Below the pieces are notes generated by a model. It saw nothing but the letters and a program-made list of their open reading frames with translations, was not told where the DNA came from and made no database searches. A DNA stretch of 64,000 nucleotides from Lysobacter silvisoli. Its GTDB lineage: Bacteria > Pseudomonadota > Gammaproteobacteria > Xanthomonadales > Xanthomonadaceae. The position numbers and the translations under genes are program-made. The stretch covers positions 1,612,001 to 1,676,000 of the forward strand of contig NZ_QTSU01000001.1 in NCBI RefSeq assembly GCF_003382365.1, read 5' to 3'. This document shows, piece after piece, positions 39,548 to 53,992 of this stretch; the first letter of the stretch is position 1, and the number at the start of each line of letters is the position of its first letter.

Positions 39548-40378
39548 ATGCCTCATATCGTGGTGGACCAGGTTCGCACGCGCGAACGCGATCCGTCCTA
39601 TGCCTATTGGAATGTCCGGCCGGCCCAATCGCTGGTGGTGTTCGTGCACGGCTGGGGCGGGCATTGCACCGATACCTGGAAGCCGGCCGCCGGCTACATC
39701 GCCGCCCACGACGGCGCGGGCGCCGGACACGACCTGCTGTTTTACGCCTACGACTCGCGCAACCAGCCGGCGGGCGTGTCGGCTGCGCAACTGGCGCGCT
39801 ACCTGCTGGACTTCCTGGCCGACCCCACCGCGGCGATCAACGCCAGTGCCAAGTTCGGACTGCGCAGACAGGCGACCGCATACCAATCGGTGATCTTCCT
39901 TTGCCACTCCCTGGGCGCAGTGGTGACCCGGCAAGCCCTGCTGGATCTGGCGGCCCGCAGCAATGCGCCGCCGGCATGGCTCAACCGGGTGCGTCTGGCC
40001 TTGTTTGCGCCCGCGCACAAAGGCGCGCTGGCCACCGAAGTCGGCAATACCCTGCTGTCCGAGTTGCTCGGGGCACCAGGACGGGCGATCGGAGCGGCGT
40101 TGCGCCTGAAATGGCAGTCGCTGCTCGACTTGGAACAAGGCTCTTCGTTCCTTGCGACCCTGGAACAAGACAGCCGCGCCTATCTGCAGCACAACCCTGG
40201 CGCGGGCTGTGCTCGCGCGGCCGTCGTGGCCTGGGCCAGCAACGACCTGATCGTGGTCCGGCAGAACTTCGCTCTGGATGTCCCGGCCGAAGTGGTGAAC
40301 GGTACCGACCACGTCTCCATCTGCAAGCCGGCGCAACGCGAACACGATGCCTACGCCCTGATGACCGCCCTATTGTGA
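39548..40378 (+). CDS. Alpha/beta hydrolase (DUF676/lipase-like), paired with an unknown gene
   Basis: A 276-residue protein without a signal peptide. It has the oxyanion strand-turn LVVFVHGWGGH, the nucleophile elbow CHSLGAVV with Ser121, an aspartate in ASNDLIVV, and a late histidine in GTDHVSICKP. These make a complete Ser-Asp-His set. The shape recalls cytoplasmic esterases of the DUF676/SERAC1 type. It is followed after only 14 bases by an unknown gene, so the pair is probably one operon. The substrate is unknown; a lipid or a thioester is possible. Confidence 0.85.
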   Translation: MPHIVVDQVRTRERDPSYAYWNVRPAQSLVVFVHGWGGHCTDTWKPAAGYIAAHDGAGAGHDLLFYAYDSRNQPAGVSAAQLARYLLDFLADPTAAINASAKFGLRRQATAYQSVIFLCHSLGAVVTRQALLDLAARSNAPPAWLNRVRLALFAPAHKGALATEVGNTLLSELLGAPGRAIGAALRLKWQSLLDLEQGSSFLATLEQDSRAYLQHNPGAGCARAAVVAWASNDLIVVRQNFALDVPAEVVNGTDHVSICKPAQREHDAYALMTALL

Positions 40379-41402: not shown

Positions 41403-42479
41403 TCAGCAATCCCCCGGCTTGAACGGCCCCGCGCTCGCCGGCCTGGCCGCCGGGTCCTGGACGAAGATCTCCTCGCGCAGTACCGCCTCCACCTGGCTCC
41501 AGGGCGTGTTGGCGTCGCGCAGCAGGATCAAGCGGCGCGTGGCGGCGATGGCGGCGCGCACCTGCACCGGGTCCGCGTCGCCGGCCGGGTAACCCTCCTT
41601 GTCGGGCCGGTCGTGGCAGGCCGTGGACTGGCCGGTGTAGCTGTAGTGCTCGAGGATGCGCGAACCGCTGCCGTCGATGGCGAACTCGCGGCCGGTATGG
41701 CTGCGCGAGTACGAGTCCTGCACGGTGTGCAGCAGGGCGCCGAAGGCCATGTCGCGCACCAGCATGTCGTTGTAGTCCTGACCCAGGCGGAACAGCGTCT
41801 GCGCGGTCCAGTCGCGCTTGCTGCCCTGGAACCAGGGCTGCATGGGCGCGAATTCGGCGATCGGCCGGTTCACCGGCAAGCGGTCCGCGCCCTGGCGCAG
41901 GCCCAGCCGATAGGCGTACTGCGACCAGGCCATGATCCGCTCCAGGGTGAGCGGCGCCGGTTCGGCGTCGGCGCTGGCCATCGCGTGCAGGAACTGCAGG
42001 TCGCCGTAGTGGGTGCGGTAGAGCATCAAGTGGTCTTCGCCGAACAGCGGCTGCGGCGGCCCCTTGGGCTTGGGCGCGGTCTTGGCTTTGACGATGGCGT
42101 CGCCGATGAAGCCGATCCAGCAGTCGGGGCGGTGCTTGGGCATCAACACCAGTTCGCCCCAGCACGTGGGCCAGCGCACCGATTTCGGAATGCCCGGCGG
42201 GTTGTCGTTCCAGATCACCCCCAGCATCACCCGCTGGTACTCGGGCCGGCCGGGGCAGTCGCTGGCGGAAATGCAGCCGTAGGCCGACAGGGTCATGCGC
42301 TCGTGCACCGGCGTGGAGCGCGAGCGCAGCACCGTCTCCACGGTGCGCTGATCCACGCCCAGGTGCCGGGCGAGGCCGGCGGCGTCGGCCGCGGCATCGC
42401 GTTCGATCATCAACAGCTGCGAGGCCGGACTGACCCCGGCGGTAGCGGCCAAGGCGGCCGCCAGTATCCACTTGCGCAT
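41403..42479 (-). CDS. Secreted protein of unknown function with an HTVQDSYSRSHT motif
   Basis: A 358-residue exported protein with a signal peptide (MRKWILAAALAATAGVSPAS). The segment AFGALLHTVQDSYSRSHT has the His-x3-Asp-x5-His spacing seen in zinc-dependent phospholipase C/P1-nuclease folds, and the helical sequence around it is compatible. Six or more cysteines (GCISASDCPG, PTCWGEL, DCWIGF, STACHD, a final C) suggest disulfides in the periplasm or outside the cell. I propose a phospholipase C-like fold tentatively. It converges on the hydrolase-unknown pair. Confidence 0.7.
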   Translation of the reverse strand: MRKWILAAALAATAGVSPASQLLMIERDAAADAAGLARHLGVDQRTVETVLRSRSTPVHERMTLSAYGCISASDCPGRPEYQRVMLGVIWNDNPPGIPKSVRWPTCWGELVLMPKHRPDCWIGFIGDAIVKAKTAPKPKGPPQPLFGEDHLMLYRTHYGDLQFLHAMASADAEPAPLTLERIMAWSQYAYRLGLRQGADRLPVNRPIAEFAPMQPWFQGSKRDWTAQTLFRLGQDYNDMLVRDMAFGALLHTVQDSYSRSHTGREFAIDGSGSRILEHYSYTGQSTACHDRPDKEGYPAGDADPVQVRAAIAATRRLILLRDANTPWSQVEAVLREEIFVQDPAARPASAGPFKPGDC

Positions 42480-42586
42480 GGAAGCCCCCTGCTCCCTCCC
42501 CGATAGCCGCGCATGCTCCGCAAACGGATGACGCCGCGTCAAATTTCTTCTAGGCTGCCCAAGCACGCATCGACAGGGGGTCTTGC

Positions 42587-43840
42587 ATGCGCACGCTTCG
42601 GCTAGGGACGGTCGTCGTCCTGCTGGCAGCCGCCGTTGGCTGTTCCAGCATCAATCACGTGGACACGCTGCCCGACGGCAGCGAAATGACGTTCGCCGGC
42701 CTCCGCGACCATTTCGGCGCGCACCCGGCCCTGCATGTGTTGCAGACCCATGGCATGGGCGACCATCCGGCGGCGGACCTCTGCGCGCCCGGTGGGCTCA
42801 ATCTCAAGCTGCAGGACCGGATAGCCGAGCGGCTGAACTTCAAGGTGCTGCCCGAGTTCGCCGCGCCGGCCACGCAGTCGATCCTGCGCGACGGCGTGGA
42901 GGTGGGCAGCTATTCCACCCGGGTGTTCGTCGACGACCTGCAGCGGCCCAGCCGCCAGTTGTACTTCTCGTGCGTGACCTGGGGCGAGGCCAGCCGCCTG
43001 ATCAAGCGCGAGCTGCTGGAGCTGGACGGCGACTTCCTGGAAACCAATCCGCACGAGGGGCGCCGCGCCTTCATCAACCGCAAGGCCAAGCAGTTCGTCA
43101 ACCGCAGCTTTTCCGACCCGGTGATCTACGTCGGCGAATTCGGCCCGTTCATCCGCGAAACCGTGCGCGAGGGCATCGCCCGTATCGACGCGGCCCAAAG
43201 CCATAACCGCATGGGGCTAGTGCAGCGCTACCCCGCCCTGGTACAAGCGGCGCCGGCACCGGCCACGCAGAGCTTCGTCGCCAGCACGCCGATGGCGGTG
43301 ATCACCGACAGCCTCGGCAGCCGGGTCCTGTTCGACGTGCTGTGGCCGCGCGCAGGCACCTCGGCGCAGAACGACGAATTCGCGCTGCATGGCGACAGCG
43401 ATCGCGCCGCCAGCGACCGTGCGCTGCAGCGCGCCGGCCAGCAAGTGCGCGCTATCTATATGCTGGCCAACCAACTGCCGCTGCTGGCCCTGGCCGAACT
43501 CAAGCCTCCGCCGCAGGGCCAGCCGCTGGATCGCTGGGCGCGGCAGTCGCCCTGCCTGATGCCGCCGCAGGCCTTGGCCGAGCTGAAGGCGCTGCGACCG
43601 AGCGAGCCGGCCCTGACCCTGGTCGCCTTCACCGACGTCAACGACGCCCTGAGCTACCGCCTCAGCGACAAGTTCAAGCAACGCTGCGCCCCGCCAGGCT
43701 CCGGCCTGAGCATCGTCAACGTCACCCTGACCAATACCCGCGCCTGGTTCGGCCTGTACGCCAACCTGATCGAGGCCCATGCCGACGGCTTCAAGCACAA
43801 CGAGGACGCCATCGGCTACGTGGTCGAGGGCAATAAGTAA
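42587..43840 (+). CDS. Lipoprotein with alpha/beta-hydrolase-like motifs
   Basis: A 417-residue lipoprotein. The lipobox AAAVGC gives a lipidated Cys19. HGMGDH at residues 55-60 resembles the oxyanion turn of lipases, and VITDSLGSRVLFD has the nucleophile-elbow pattern with Ser242 (TDSLGS, slightly off the GxSxG rule). A late HADGFKHNEDAIGYV could supply the histidine. No function is known to me. It diverges from the secreted-protein gene by 107 bases and precedes mutS by 154 bases. Two hydrolase-like proteins within 4 kb suggest a shared lipid- or ester-related theme. Confidence 0.7.
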   Translation: MRTLRLGTVVVLLAAAVGCSSINHVDTLPDGSEMTFAGLRDHFGAHPALHVLQTHGMGDHPAADLCAPGGLNLKLQDRIAERLNFKVLPEFAAPATQSILRDGVEVGSYSTRVFVDDLQRPSRQLYFSCVTWGEASRLIKRELLELDGDFLETNPHEGRRAFINRKAKQFVNRSFSDPVIYVGEFGPFIRETVREGIARIDAAQSHNRMGLVQRYPALVQAAPAPATQSFVASTPMAVITDSLGSRVLFDVLWPRAGTSAQNDEFALHGDSDRAASDRALQRAGQQVRAIYMLANQLPLLALAELKPPPQGQPLDRWARQSPCLMPPQALAELKALRPSEPALTLVAFTDVNDALSYRLSDKFKQRCAPPGSGLSIVNVTLTNTRAWFGLYANLIEAHADGFKHNEDAIGYVVEGNK

Positions 43841-43994
43841 GCCCCAGGGTCGATCCCTGAACGGCGCCGCCCCCGCGCCGGGGGGCCTGATCTGCTCGGC
43901 ATTTGTCAACCTTGGGCGGGGCGGCCGACTTTAGCTACCCTGTGGCTCCGCGGACGGCACCCGCCCCGCGCCCTGCGCCACCCCACCGCCCCTG

Positions 43995-46595
43995 ATGACC
44001 GATATCGCCGACGCGCGCAAAGCCCCGCAAACCGCGGAGCACACCCCGCTGATGAAGCAGTTCTTCGCCGCCAAGGCGGAGCATCCGGACGTGCTGCTGT
44101 TCTTCCGCATGGGCGATTTCTACGAGTTGTTCTACGACGACGCGCGCAAGGCCGCGCGGCTGTTGGACATCACCCTGACCCAGCGCGGCGCCTCGGGCGG
44201 GCAGCCCATTCCCATGGCCGGCGTGCCGCACCATTCGGCCGAGGGCTACCTGGCGCGGCTGGTGGCGCTGGGCGAATCGGTGGCGATCTGCGAGCAGATC
44301 GGCGACCCGGCGCTGGCCAAGGGCATCGTCGAACGCAAGGTGGTGCGCATCGTCACCCCGGGCACGGTCACCGACGAAGCCCTGCTCAACGAACGCCGCG
44401 ACACCCTGCTGCTGGCGATCGCGCGCGGCAAGCACGGCTACGGCCTGGCCTGGGCCGACCTGGCCGGCGGCCGTTTCCTGGTCAACGAAGTGGCCAGCGA
44501 GGACGCGCTGGAAGCCGAGCTGGCGCGGCTGGAGCCGGCCGAGACCCTGGTCCCCGACGAGGACGGCTGGGCGCCGTTCGTGGCCGAGCGCAGCGGCCTG
44601 CGCCGGCGCGCGCCCTGGCTGTTCGACGTCGACAGCGGCCGGCGCCAGTTGTTGCGCTTCTTCGGCCTGCACGACCTGTCCGGCTTCGGCCTGGAAGACC
44701 GGCCGCTGGCGATCGCCGCCGCCGCCGCGCTGCTGGGCTACGTCGAGGAAACCCAGAAGCAACGCCTGCCGCACCTGACCTCGATCGCGCTGGAATCCGG
44801 CGACGGCGCCATCGCCATGAACGCCGCCACCCGCCGCCATCTGGAATTGGACAGCCGCATCGACGGCGACAGCCGCACCACCCTGCTGGGCGTGCTCGAC
44901 AGCACCATCACGCCGATGGGCGGGCGCCTGCTGCGGCGCTGGCTGCACCGGCCGCTGCGCGACCGCGCGACCCTGCAGCTGCGCCACCAGGCGGTGGCCA
45001 CCCTGATCGAGCGCGGCGCCGGCGACAGCGTGCGCGAGCGCTTCCGCGCGCTGGGCGACCTGGAACGCATCCTCTCGCGCATCGCTTTGCGCAGCGCGCG
45101 CCCGCGCGACCTGTCGACCCTGCGCGACGGCCTGGGCCTGCTGCCCGACGTGCGCGCGGTGCTGGCGCCGCTGGACGCGCCGCGCCTGGCCGAGCTCGGC
45201 GCCGAACTGGGCGAGCACGCCGAACACGCGCACCTGCTGGCGCAGGCGATCGTGCCGCAGCCGCCGGTGCTGGCCCGCGACGGCGGCGTGTTCGCCACCG
45301 GCTTCGACGCCGAGCTGGACGAACTGCGCACGCTGTCGACCAATGCCGACCAGTTCCTGGTCGACCTGGAAGCGCGCGAGCGCGCGGCCAGCGGCATCCC
45401 CACCCTCAAGGTGGGCTACAACCGCGTGCACGGCTATTACCTGGAAATCAGCAAGGCCCAGGCCGAGAAGGCGCCCACGCATTACACCCGCCGCCAGACC
45501 CTGAGCAACGCCGAGCGCTACATCACCGAGGAGCTCAAGCAGTTCGAGGACAAGGTGCTGTCGGCGCGCGAGCGCGCGCTGTCGCGCGAACGCCTGCTCT
45601 ACGAACAACTGCTGGACGCGCTCAACGAACGCCTGGCCCCGCTCAAGCGCTGCGCCGCGGCGCTGTCCGAACTGGACGTGCTGTGCGCCTTCGCCGAACG
45701 CGCGGCCAGCCTGGACTGGGCGCAGCCGGAACTGACGGAGGCGCCGGGCTTGCGCATCGAACGCGGCCGCCACCCGGTGGTGGAGGCGGTGCGCAGCGAG
45801 CCGTTCGAGCCCAACGATCTGATCCTGGACGAGGACAACGGCCGGCGCATGCTGGTCATCACCGGCCCGAACATGGGCGGTAAGTCGACCTACATGCGCC
45901 AGAACGCGCTGATCGTGCTGTTGGCGCATATCGGCAGCTTCGTGCCGGCCTCGCGCGCCGTGCTCGGCCCGGTCGACCGCATCCTGACCCGCATCGGCGC
46001 CGGCGACGACCTGGCCCGCGGCCAATCGACCTTCATGGTCGAAATGAGCGAGACCAGCTACATCCTGCACCACGCCAGCGACCGCTCGCTGGTGCTGATG
46101 GACGAGATCGGTCGCGGCACCTCGACCTACGACGGCCTGGCGCTGGCCGAGGCCTGCGCTCGCCACCTGGCCCATCACAATCGCGCCTACACCCTGTTCG
46201 CCACCCACTATTTCGAACTGACCGCGCTGGCCGAACCCGGCAACGGCATCGCCAACGTGCACCTGGACGCGGTGGAGCATGGCGAGCAACTGGTGTTCAT
46301 GCACGCGGTCAAGGACGGCCCGGCCGACCGCAGTTTCGGCCTGCAGGTGGCGGCGCTGGCGGGCCTGCCCAAATCGGTGGTCAAGCAGGCGCGCGCGCGC
46401 CTGATCGAACTGGAGCAGCAGGGCCGCGACCATCCCACACCCTCGCTGGCCACCGCCGCACTGGACGCACCGCAGCAGTTCGGCCTGTTCGCGCCGTCGT
46501 CGGCGGCGCTGGACGCGCTGGGCGAGGTCGATCCCGACGAGCTCACGCCCAAGCAGGCGCTGGAAGCGCTGTACCGGCTCAAAGCCCTGCTCTGA
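43995..46595 (+). CDS. mutS: DNA mismatch repair protein MutS
   Basis: Recognises mismatches and starts methyl-directed repair. The protein has about 866 residues with the N-terminal mismatch-binding [14 protein letters not shown] (Phe-x-Glu motif), clamp and lever domains, and Walker A GPNMGGKS near residues 624-631. [25 protein letters not shown] and the C-terminal ATHYFELT also belong to the ATPase, followed by a tail ending [11 protein letters not shown]. All domains are intact. The next gene, the AAA-RF2 fusion, starts 55 bases later on the same strand. Confidence 0.97.
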
Positions 46596-46649
46596 GGTCC
46601 GACGCGCCGCAGCCGCTAGACTGTGGCGCAAACGGTCAACGGAGCGGTC

Positions 46650-49600
46650 GTGGAAGCCCTGATTTTCGTCGTCGGCCTGGTCGCCGGCCTGATCCTCGCG
46701 CGCCTGTACCGCCCCGCCCCGCCGGCGCCGCCGGCCACGCCCATCGCCGCACCGCCCGAGCGCGAAGACGAGCGCAGCGAAGCCGCCTTGCCCGCGCCGC
46801 CCAGCGAACCGGAATCCGCGCCGCCCGACGCAGCGCCGGAGACGCCGCAGGATCGTCTGGATCGGCTGGTGCGCGAGGTCATGGCCAACGACGACCGCAT
46901 CCAGCGCCCGCAGGACCTGATCGCCCAGCCCGCGTTCCAGCAGGGCGTGGACCTGCTCGCCAGCGACGCCTTCAGCGCCGACGAACTGCTGCGCCAGGTG
47001 CCCGGCGCGGGTTACGTGCTGCAGTCGATGGCCATCCGCGCCGCTGCGCGCCGCGAGGACGTGGCCTTCGCGCCCTTGCTGGATCAGGCCGGCCAGTTCG
47101 GCGCCTATCCGCTGCATCTGCTGATCGAAGCGCTGCGCACGCGCGCCGACGCCGCCTCGCTGCTGCCGCTGATGCGCCACGCCCAGCCGTGGTGGTGGGA
47201 GTTCGCCCCGCTGCGCCAGTTGCTGCGCGACTACCTGCAGTGGGCCGAGGGCATGGGCGCGGCGAGCGCGGTGCCGCCGCTGGACGATCTGGACGAGGAC
47301 GGCATCGCCCAGCTGCGCGAGAGCCTGAGGCGCTTCGCCTCTCCTGCGCTGGCGCCGCTGGCCGAGCAGTTGGAACGCGCCGCGGGCGCGCGCCGCGAAG
47401 GCCGCGTGCTCGGCGGCTTCGGCCGGGTCAATCCGCAGCCCAAGCCGCGCACCCGCATCGTCCACGACGAACTGGCCGCGCAACTGCAACGCCTGCACGA
47501 GCTCTACAGCGGCGACGACGCGGCCTCGGTGCTGGTCTCCGGCGAACACGGCGTGGGCAAGAGCGTGCTCATCGACCTGCTGACCGAGCGCCTGCAAGCC
47601 GAAGGCTGGCTGGTGTTCGAAGCCTCCGCCGCCGAGGTGCTGGCCGGTCAGAGCTACATCGGCGAACTCGAGGAGCGCGTGCGCGAGATGCTGGCGGTGC
47701 TCAACCGCAAGCGCGCGCTGTGGCGGGTGCCGGAGTTCGTGGACCTGCTCAACAAAGGCGCGCATTCGCGCGACCCGCGCGGCCTGCTCGACCTGGTGCT
47801 GCCGGCGATCGAGCGCGGCGAACTGCGCCTGATCGGCGAGATCACCCCGCGCCAGCTGGCTCAGTTGCAGGTGGCGCGGCCGGTGATCAAGCACCACTTC
47901 CGCGCCCTCAACCTGGAGCCCCTGGCCGCCGACGCGCTGGAGCCGGTGGCGCAACGCTGGGCCCAGGCCGAGCGCGAGCGCCACGGCCGCGAGATCGCCG
48001 ACGCGCGCACCCTGGGCGAAGCCGCGCGCATGGCCGCGCAGTACTTCCCCGAGCAGCACGAACCCGGCCGCCTGCTGCGCCTGCTCGACGACACCCTGCA
48101 GGCCGCCGTCGCCAGCGACCCGCCCCGCCTGCCGCTGGACGGCGAACAGGTGCTGGCGGCGATCGCGCGCCGCAGCGGCCTGCCGCTGGAGGTGATCGAC
48201 GACCGCCAGAGCCTGGACCTGGAGCGCCTGCGCGCGCTCTTCCGCACCCGCGTGATCGGCCAGGACGAGGCCGTGGATGCGCTGCTGGACCGCATCGCCC
48301 TGCTCAAGGCCGGCCTGACCGACAACGGCCGCCCGATCGGCGTGTTCCTGTTCGCCGGCCCCACCGGCACCGGCAAGACCGAACTGGCCAAGGCCCTGGG
48401 CGAATTGCTGTTCGGCAGCGACGAGCGCCTGTTGCGCCTGGACATGAGCGAGTTCCAGTCCGAGGACGCGGCCTGGCGCCTGACCGCCGACGACGACGGC
48501 CAGGGCGTGCGCTCGCTGACCTCGCGCATCCGCCAGCAACCGTTCTCGGTGGTGCTGCTGGACGAGTTCGAAAAGGCCCACCCCAAGGTCTGGGACCTGT
48601 TCCTGCAGGTGTTCGACGACGCGCGCTTGAGCGACCGCAGCGGCCACACCGCCGATTTCCGCCACAGCATCATCATCCTCACCAGCAACGTCGGCTCCAC
48701 GATCACCCGCAGCGCCGGGCCGGGCTTCACCGCCACCCGCGGCGGCTATTCGCGCGCGGCGGTGGAAAAGGCGCTGTTCGAAACCTTCCGCCGCGAATTC
48801 ATCAACCGCCTGGACCGGGTGGTGCTGTTCAACCCGCTGGACCGCAACCTGATGCGCGAGATCCTGCACAAGGAACTGGCGCGGGTGCTGACCCGGCGCG
48901 GCCTGCGCAACCGCGACTGGGCGGTGGAGTGGGAACCCTCGGCGATCGAGTTCCTGCTCGACAAGGGCTTCACCCCGGACCTGGGCGCGCGCCCGCTGCG
49001 GCGCGCGATCGAGCACCACCTGCTGGCGCCGCTGGCGCGCAGCATCGTCGAGCACCGCGCGCCGCAAGGCGACCAGTTCCTGTTCGTGCGCAGCGCCGGC
49101 GACAAGCTGGAGGTGGAGTTCATCGATCCCGAACCCGCGCCGGCCGCCGCCGCGCCGGCGCCGGCGGGCGCGGTGCCGGCACCCGGCGGCGACGATCTGC
49201 GCGACCTGGTCTACGCGCCCACCGCCGATGCGGCCGCGGTCGCGCGCCTGGACGCGCGCCTGAGCGCGCTGGAAGCGACGGTGCAGGGCGCGCCCTGGCG
49301 CAACGAGCGCGAGGCCGACTATGCGCGCATGAGCGCCGCGGATTTCTGGGAATCGCCCGAACGCCACGGCGTGCTCGACCGGATCGAACGCCGCGACCGC
49401 ATCGAAAGCGCGCTCGATACTGCCCGGCGCATGCAGCACCGCCTGCGCGAAGACCGCGGCAGCGACGAATTCGCCGGCCGCCTGGCGCAGTTGCTGTTCC
49501 TGCTCGATCTGGCCGCCAGCGCGGTGGCCGAGCAGCGCCCGCAGGACGCGCTGCTGGAAATCGACACCGATCCGTCCGTGCAGCAGCGCCACGGCGCCGA

Positions 49601-50003
49601 CCTGCGGCTGTGGTGGCAGGACCTGCTGGAGATGTACCTGGCCTGGGCGCGCCGCCGCAACATGCGCGTGGAAGTGCTGCGCCAGGACGGCGAACGCTGC
49701 CGCGCCTGGCTGGCGATCAGCGGCTTCGGCGCCTACGACCTGCTGCGCGACGAATCCGGCCTGCACGTGCGCGAGGAAGCCGACGAAGGCGCGACCCGGC
49801 GCCTGAGCCTGTCGGTGCAGGTCGCGCCCGACCTGCCGGGCCGCGCGCGCGTGCCCGCACCGCGCGCCGAGGACGAGCGGCGGATCTGCCGTCGCTACCG
49901 CGACACGCCCTCGCCGCTGGTGCGCGACGGCGTGCGCGGCTGGCGCAGCGGCCGCCTGGACCGTGTCCTGGGTGGCGAATTCGATGTGATCCAGGGCGGC
50001 TGA
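46650..50003 (+). CDS. Membrane-anchored ClpA/B-like AAA+ protein with a C-terminal RF2-like region lacking GGQ
   Basis: About 1117 residues from the GTG at 46650, which has a GGAG ribosome site (GTG at 46623 is an alternative). A single N-terminal helix (ALIFVVGLVAGLILARLY) is followed by a Pro-rich linker and a helical region. AAA+ module 1 has Walker A GEHGVGKS at about 298-305, but Walker B is degenerate (RVPEFVDLL). AAA+ module 2 has GPTGTGKT at about 570-577, LLDEFEKAHPKVWDLFLQVF and sensor-2 GARPLRRAIEHHLL. After an Ala/Pro linker, residues ~890-1117 resemble release factor 2: DFWESPERHG, LLEIDTDPS with WWQDLLEMYLAWARRRNMRVEVL, GLHVRE, and a tail RLDRVLGGEFD. The SPF and GGQ motifs are absent. 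I infer a ribosome- or nascent-chain-linked unfoldase. It may be co-transcribed with mutS. Confidence 0.85.
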   Translation: MEALIFVVGLVAGLILARLYRPAPPAPPATPIAAPPEREDERSEAALPAPPSEPESAPPDAAPETPQDRLDRLVREVMANDDRIQRPQDLIAQPAFQQGVDLLASDAFSADELLRQVPGAGYVLQSMAIRAAARREDVAFAPLLDQAGQFGAYPLHLLIEALRTRADAASLLPLMRHAQPWWWEFAPLRQLLRDYLQWAEGMGAASAVPPLDDLDEDGIAQLRESLRRFASPALAPLAEQLERAAGARREGRVLGGFGRVNPQPKPRTRIVHDELAAQLQRLHELYSGDDAASVLVSGEHGVGKSVLIDLLTERLQAEGWLVFEASAAEVLAGQSYIGELEERVREMLAVLNRKRALWRVPEFVDLLNKGAHSRDPRGLLDLVLPAIERGELRLIGEITPRQLAQLQVARPVIKHHFRALNLEPLAADALEPVAQRWAQAERERHGREIADARTLGEAARMAAQYFPEQHEPGRLLRLLDDTLQAAVASDPPRLPLDGEQVLAAIARRSGLPLEVIDDRQSLDLERLRALFRTRVIGQDEAVDALLDRIALLKAGLTDNGRPIGVFLFAGPTGTGKTELAKALGELLFGSDERLLRLDMSEFQSEDAAWRLTADDDGQGVRSLTSRIRQQPFSVVLLDEFEKAHPKVWDLFLQVFDDARLSDRSGHTADFRHSIIILTSNVGSTITRSAGPGFTATRGGYSRAAVEKALFETFRREFINRLDRVVLFNPLDRNLMREILHKELARVLTRRGLRNRDWAVEWEPSAIEFLLDKGFTPDLGARPLRRAIEHHLLAPLARSIVEHRAPQGDQFLFVRSAGDKLEVEFIDPEPAPAAAAPAPAGAVPAPGGDDLRDLVYAPTADAAAVARLDARLSALEATVQGAPWRNEREADYARMSAADFWESPERHGVLDRIERRDRIESALDTARRMQHRLREDRGSDEFAGRLAQLLFLLDLAASAVAEQRPQDALLEIDTDPSVQQRHGADLRLWWQDLLEMYLAWARRRNMRVEVLRQDGERCRAWLAISGFGAYDLLRDESGLHVREEADEGATRRLSLSVQVAPDLPGRARVPAPRAEDERRICRRYRDTPSPLVRDGVRGWRSGRLDRVLGGEFDVIQGG

Positions 50004-51589: not shown

Positions 51590-53992
<2,403 letters not shown>

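Follow-up and report, generated by a model that had tools for sequence, protein, structure and literature searches.

Identification of the fusion gene

We analysed a gene of Lysobacter silvisoli whose product joins a double-AAA Clp/Hsp100-like ATPase, preceded by a predicted membrane anchor, to a C-terminal module derived from release factor 2 (RF2). The gene occupies 46650..50003 on the + strand of the window, by which we mean the whole 64,000-nucleotide stretch of contig NZ_QTSU01000001.1 that was analysed (positions 1,612,001 to 1,676,000), and encodes 1117 amino acids (aa). The open reading frame (ORF) itself extends further upstream, from its first GTG at 46623 to 50003 (1126 aa). Since the N-terminus conserved among relatives begins at the GTG codon at 46650, and a GGAG sequence (46641-46644) lies five bases upstream of it, GTG 46650 is preferred to GTG 46623 as the probable start. 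On the - strand, a 1943-aa open frame (43935-49766) runs antisense to mutS and the fusion gene; it lies opposite well-conserved genes and looks like a composition artefact of this G+C-rich DNA.

The initial annotation, made from the letters of the sequence, had described an RF2-like region fused to a ClpA/B-type AAA+ protein. The Pfam families AAA_2, ClpB_D2-small and PCRF all match within the one frame, and the peptides it had quoted (DFWESPERHG, LLEIDTDPS, WWQDLLEMYLAWARRRNMRVEVL, GLHVRE and RLDRVLGGEFD) are all present in the translation, in frame with the AAA+ part and roughly where it had placed them (residues 890-1117, counted from GTG 46650).

The C-terminal region is homologous to RF2

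Profile comparisons identify the last ~240 residues as homologous to RF2, comprising its domain 1 and its domain 2/4 core in the same order. The Pfam model PCRF scored 36.6 bits (E 5.4e-9) against the C-terminal 246 aa and 33.2 bits against the whole protein, above its curated cut-off of 24, and the NCBIfam model TIGR00020 (prfB) matched with E-values of 5.6e-7 (28.9 bits, far under the model cut-off of 370) and 3.6e-6. We then aligned a profile of the fusion proteins (A3; 30 rows, including two pairs of apparently identical proteins) with a profile of RF2 (A4; 9 rows) using hhalign, which gave a probability of 98.5 and an E-value of 3.1e-15. When all PDB chains were searched with A3, each of the 28 matches at E<=1 was RF2 or RF1 (release factor 1), the best at 2e-12. 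The best of these alignments breaks off at about RF2 residue 227; its second piece, which alone is not significant (5.1 bits), begins at residue 322. The last 41 residues scored 28.2 against the RF2 C-terminus, whereas the highest score among 200 column shuffles was 15.9 (0/200 as good); given the full RF2 profile, they found the C-terminal place, at 30.4 versus a shuffle maximum of 21.5.

For wider comparison we used 39 fusion sequences, namely that of the window and 38 relatives, of which L106 lacks the N-terminus and L079 is cut at a contig end. An RF2 model built from A4 matched all 39 (14.9 to 34.8 bits, weakest in L078), and matched neither the ClpA of the same genome nor reversed controls. 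Together with the tail test, this rules out a chance similarity or a false match derived from the AAA part. The initial annotation had read the N-terminal helix, the PCRF domain and the extreme C-terminus of RF2 in this order, and had named a lack of any significant profile match as an outcome that would speak against it; comparison with the PCRF and RF1/RF2 profiles proved significant, and the order is borne out by hhalign, the PDB matches and the tail test.

The module divides into three parts, all on the + strand. A helical part resembling RF2 domain 1 (ADFWESPERHGVLDRIERRDRIES...) lies at 49287..49547, as placed by hhalign and the RF2 model match to residues 892-1068, and a part resembling RF2 domain 2, placed by Pfam PCRF and the PDB matches to RF2, follows at 49548..49841 without the stop-codon Gly-Gly and SPF; the boundaries of both are approximate. 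The counterpart of the RF2 C-terminal tail (RRICRRYRDTPSPLVRDGVRGWRSGRLDRVLGGEFD...), which comes after the lost GGQ block, lies at 49878..50000, supported by the tail-to-tail profile match and the second PDB piece. Its conserved sequence is Arg-rich, RRY...LVRD.xRGWRxGR, with many invariant columns among 30 rows.

The genome has two further PCRF genes, for separate RF1 and RF2 proteins, both with GGQ, told apart by their PAT- and SPF-type motifs. The RF2 part of the fusion is therefore a third, additional copy. In a tree of 228 alignment columns, the 12 fusion sequences included clustered together with support 100, at the end of a long branch (2.14) that lies among the RF2s. Supports along the RF2 backbone were 34-62, and RF1 stood beside gammaproteobacterial RF2 (95), which is probably a long-branch effect.

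The RF2-derived module lacks the motifs for peptide release and codon reading

The GGQ and SPF motifs, present in 9/9 comparison RF2s, were found in none of the 39 fusion sequences (0/39 each in the RF2-like region). At 14 of 25 fusion loci the letters GGQ do occur within the ATPase part, at a position unrelated to the RF2 motif. The alignment gap covers RF2 residues of about 228-321, and this gap in the PDB alignment, together with the tail match, places the loss over the GGQ-bearing block. Thus, the stretch that the initial annotation had called replaced or shortened can be described more sharply as loss of that block. Two further elements are gone: the Gly-Gly at the tip of helix 5, invariant in the 9 RF2s, was absent near the equivalent place in all 39 sequences, some of which retain one Gly, and the switch-loop Trp, present in 8/9 RF2s, was found in 0/38.

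In RF2, domain 1 contacts the L11 stalk and domain 3 bears GGQ, SPF reads the codon, and A1492 forms a stack with the switch-loop residue Trp319, as described in PMC5378476; the Gly-Gly is thought to touch the first stop-codon base (PMC1586002). By these correspondences, the RF2-like part has lost its means of catalysis, of reading the codon and of switching the decoding centre, and keeps domain 1 and the 2/4 core at the sequence level. As the initial annotation had anticipated, no peptidyl-tRNA hydrolysis would be expected of a protein that lacks GGQ and SPF in 39/39 sequences. Because SPF, GGQ, Gly-Gly and the switch-loop Trp have all disappeared, the known A-site contacts are largely lost, which weakens the case for A-site docking.

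This bears on the possibility, raised in the initial annotation, that the module is a ribosome-docking mimic. In that case domain 1 would still bind the L11 stalk, the 2/4 core would enter or come near the A site when ribosomes are stalled or idle, and such ribosomes would be brought to a membrane ATPase whose target is the ribosome itself, a factor bound to it or the nascent chain. Retention of the domain 1 region, which aligns with the L11-stalk-contacting part of RF2, would be consistent with such docking, but the loss of Gly-Gly, SPF, the switch-loop Trp and the GGQ block argues against it. In 28 genomes of the order, of which 14 carry the fusion and 14 lack it, ArfA was found in none (0/28), and an E. 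coli control was positive; help from ArfA for ribosome docking is therefore without support. On balance we regard docking as rather unlikely.

The loss of SPF and GGQ has a counterpart in plants, where PrfB3, a non-releasing RF2 relative without these two motifs, is described as binding the 3' region of petB mRNA (PMC5897788). By analogy, the RF2-derived part might bind a particular RNA that the ATPase anchors or remodels, and the Arg-rich tail would suit such a role. No target RNA emerged from the analysis, which included no RNA search around the gene, and we rate this form of reuse as improbable, below ribosome docking.

The ATPase part has a catalytically intact D2 with a changed pore loop and an altered D1

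The solved structures nearest to the ATPase part are those of ClpB and ClpC, followed by others including ClpA. The NCBIfam models for ClpB (289.5 bits, cut-off 1232.1) and ClpA (277.1 bits, cut-off 993.15) both scored far below their cut-offs. We scored the motifs of the two AAA modules, D1 and D2, in the 39 sequences after aligning them with the ClpA that this genome encodes.

In module D1 (47490..48119, + strand), Walker A is intact (47541-47564) and the Walker B Asp is replaced (RVPEF, 47724-47738). Across the family this column holds Pro in 34 sequences, Gln in 3, Ser in 1 and His in 1, and Asp in none (n=39); the Walker B Glu column holds Glu in 18, Asp in 19 and another residue in 2. 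The Arg-Arg finger pair of ClpA was found in 0/39, with a single Arg remaining in 10, and pore loop 1 carries an aromatic residue (Tyr/Phe) in 38/39. In module D2 (48147..49139, + strand; Walker A 48357-48380), to which the AAA_2 and ClpB_D2-small matches belong, Walker A, the DE of Walker B, sensor 1, the Arg finger and sensor 2 are intact in 39/39. In place of the GYVG pore loop, D2 has a shorter loop that contains no aromatic residue (about 48483-48509): no sequence of the 39 has an aromatic residue in the pore-loop columns, and the letters G-aromatic-VG occur elsewhere in the protein in 2/39.

Some Hsp100 proteins, though not all, have a ClpP-docking loop with the tripeptide IGF or, more generally, [LIV]-G-[FL]. 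Aligned with the IGF tripeptide of ClpA we found Gly-Pro-Gly-Phe (GPGF; 48717..48728, + strand); xGF, its first residue mostly Pro, stands at this place in 38/39 sequences and has been kept despite the changes in D1 Walker B and the D2 pore loop.

These patterns suggest that D2 is the active engine and that D1 is a ring which binds nucleotide and is mainly structural. Any threading by way of the D2 pore would differ from that in ClpA and ClpB. The initial annotation had called the protein an ATP-driven unfoldase: the ATP-driven part is favoured by the D2 catalytic motifs (39/39), whereas the absence of the D1 Walker B Asp and of the D2 aromatic pore loop (0/39 each) leaves unfolding doubtful.

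A predicted membrane anchor and a family-specific domain precede the ATPase

A Kyte-Doolittle scan predicted a transmembrane anchor (EALIFVVGLVAGLILARLY), followed by Arg, at 46653..46709 on the + strand; the initial annotation had made no mention of it. In the frames of the window and 24 further loci, several of which extend upstream of the true start, this simple scan put the strongest hydrophobic window N-terminal, ahead of the ATPase, in 25/25, with basic residues next to it. Because Arg or other basic residues follow the anchor, the positive-inside rule would make the ATPase and the RF2-like part cytoplasmic and tied to the inner membrane. Given the predicted anchor and the losses in D1 Walker B and the D2 pore loop, the protein therefore does not look like an ordinary threading unfoldase.

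Between the anchor and D1, a family-specific domain of ~residues 60-280 (46827..47489, + strand) occupies the position of a Clp N domain. A profile of it (A5, 10 rows) found no PDB sequence match at E<=1, and no Pfam family had its best stretch in this domain among the matches listed (25 of 37 families).

Distribution and selection

Of 20 genomes of the genus, 17 encode the full protein, the source genome included, compared with 0/5 in the other genera of the family that were sampled and 1/16 in others of the order. When 299 genomes of the order were searched, 17 matched, 15 of them via the RF2-like part and two (G034 and G316) in the ATPase part only. Among 274 genomes of the class, a match of the fusion type occurred in the source genome only; in the remaining 29 genomes with matches the frames measured 344-582 aa, a length expected of RF2. 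A pattern-limited scan that took one genome from each of 84,980 species returned 36 loci: 25 fusions and, from other phyla, 11 RF2-type frames that bear GGQ. The fusion loci, all named as members of Lysobacterales, belong to Lysobacter, Xanthomonas, Pseudoxanthomonas, Luteimonas, Tahibacter, Rudaea and metagenome-assembled genomes. At 24 of the 25 the ATPase is in the same frame, and the remaining one, L077, begins at a contig edge. Thus the AAA+ plus RF2-like architecture, which the initial annotation had wished to see sought in other genomes, recurs; all fusions found lie in Lysobacterales, with a patchy distribution.

Searches of phages and plasmids yielded no record that reached 80% coverage of the C-terminal part. 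One weak plasmid match, annotated prfB (E 5e-3), and two unannotated phage records (E 1e-3 and 4e-3), which cover 32 and 63% of the query with identities of 29-37%, lend no support to a mobile or phage gene. A defence-system reading gained no specific support either, as the PADLOC model matches fall inside the AAA part only.

The ratio of nonsynonymous to synonymous substitution rates (dN/dS), taken as the median of 45 pairs from ten genomes of the genus, was 0.55 for the N-terminal domain, 0.40 for D1, 0.17 for D2 and 0.41 for the RF2-like part, and 0.21 for the C-terminal 41 residues of that part. The values for the RF2-like part, its tail and D2 therefore indicate purifying selection. A pseudogene or a local assembly artefact is ruled out: the full-length frame recurs across the genus, the ATPase and the RF2-like part share a frame at nearly all the loci as counted above, and all pairwise dN/dS values are <1.

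These figures also bear on the idea that the RF2-like part is an evolutionary leftover, which would serve only as a structural cap or for oligomerisation and bind no partner itself. Its moderate constraint would fit this idea, as would the absence of the gene from 3 of the 20 genus genomes, in which the flanking genes mutS and katG stand close together; but the C-terminal 41 residues are well kept, in their dN/dS as in their invariant columns, and the four motif losses are common to all sequences examined. We give this explanation little weight.

Gene neighbourhood

The gene mutS lies upstream at 18/25 loci and katG downstream at 17/25. In the three genus genomes without the fusion gene, mutS and katG are about 470 (G013), 630 (G015) and 2310 (G012) bases apart. 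Two more members of the family also lack the fusion gene: in one the distance between mutS and katG is 9.5 kb, and the other gave no katG match. Loci without mutS share, by eye, an apparent metalloprotease and a MerR-type regulator as neighbours, which give no functional hint.

Three other features of the window deserve mention. An 800-aa UvrA paralogue lies between the fusion gene and katG (51590-53992, + strand); it scored 667.1 bits, under the UvrA cut-off of 729.8, against a model of length 924. Two ORFs at 41403-43840, of 387 aa (- strand) and 417 aa (+ strand), had no Pfam match at E<=0.001, and an alpha/beta hydrolase is encoded near them at 39548-40378.

A proposed role for the fusion protein

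The explanation towards which we lean, with confidence slightly on its side, is that the protein is an inner-membrane-anchored Clp/Hsp100 ring ATPase in which an RF2 copy without domain 3 and codon contacts serves as a C-terminal recognition arm. It starts from the homology, architecture, motif losses and conservation that the sequence comparisons show. To these it adds that the predicted anchor would hold the protein in the membrane in the orientation given above, that the subunits would form a ring with an inactive D1, and that the arm would be a binding module. D2 would hydrolyse ATP, while D1 would probably bind ATP without normal hydrolysis and stabilise the ring. The RF2-derived arm would bind a partner, which may be a protein or an RNA and is possibly still ribosome-associated, and D2 would remodel whatever the arm holds; the protein would not terminate translation. 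We give ribosome docking a minor share of the probability, and the greater part of what is left to other kinds of recognition. PrfB3 would be a precedent, by analogy, for reuse of an RF2 relative that has lost SPF and GGQ (PMC5897788).

Several observations weigh against this recognition-arm explanation. The RF2-like part evolves faster than D2 (0.41 vs 0.17), so that its constraint is only moderate, and the loss of the D2 pore loop clouds how D2 would act on whatever partner is bound. The assignment of an RF2-like fold comes from sequence profiles. The neighbouring mutS and katG are uninformative as to an operon partner, since the two genes also lie close together where the fusion gene is absent.

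The sequence evidence suggests that a factor that once ended translation has been reused as a recognition arm. A more specific form, which we offer tentatively and consider unlikely as it stands, is a membrane-tethered AAA+ remodeller that would locate ribosomes, or complexes derived from them, at the inner membrane by means of a release-factor mimic incapable of release, the RF2 copy being its targeting arm. If this were true, translation state would be coupled to ATP-driven remodelling by a membrane AAA+ machine, and we know of no such coupling in bacteria. If the arm does not bind ribosomes, the family would be a clear bacterial case, spanning 39 sequences, of an emptied release factor reused as a machine module. 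In either case, the gene stands next to mutS in Lysobacter as one unit that can be removed, which makes the question directly testable.

Comparison with known systems

Among the papers listed from the open-licence PMC literature, judged by titles and abstract starts, we found no description of an AAA+ plus RF2-like architecture, in agreement with the remark in the initial annotation that no described system of such architecture was known. The domain combination may already be listed in automated domain databases.

The nearest other Clp-like ATPases found are those of G034 and G316, from the same order, with 36-38% identity over the ATPase part. In G034 a row of genes encodes a flotillin-like protein (25 bits, far under the model cut-off), a DUF3686 'DNA repair' ATPase of 1747 aa and three Clp-like proteins with two AAA modules each, of 1030, 1057 and 802 aa; G316 also has these three Clp-like frames (loci L021:537-17451 and L115). 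The tail of the first shows a weak colinear similarity to RF2 (32.6 versus a maximum of 21.0 in 100 shuffles), with an hhalign probability of only 20.8 and no Pfam match. Compared with A3, this tail scored 15.7, within the shuffles (mean 15.1, maximum 24.2), and no RF2-like tail was found in the second protein. The G034/G316 proteins thus differ from the fusion in that their RF2 tail similarity is not secure and, in G034, in their flotillin-like and DUF3686 neighbours.

With ClpB, ClpA and ClpC (Hsp100, class 1) the fusion protein shares two AAA modules, the D2 motifs and ClpB_D2-small. It differs from them by its predicted anchor, an unrelated N-terminal domain and the RF2-derived module, as well as by the lack of the D1 Walker B Asp and of an aromatic D2 pore loop. 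With RF2 (PrfB) it shares the sequence order of domain 1 and domain 2/4, including the C-terminal tail; unlike RF2, it has no GGQ block, SPF, Gly-Gly or switch-loop Trp, and the RF2-like part is not a separate protein. RFH (PrfH), described in PMC1586002 as an atypical bacterial relative of the class-I release factors beside RF1 and RF2, keeps GGQ and lacks domain 1, which is the opposite of the fusion pattern. The description of chloroplast PrfB3 in PMC5897788 has it act on petB mRNA and, in the text consulted, names no ATPase part. Like the fusion, it is an RF2 relative that has lost SPF and GGQ and taken another role and, on that account, it is the nearest precedent we found for an emptied and reused release factor.

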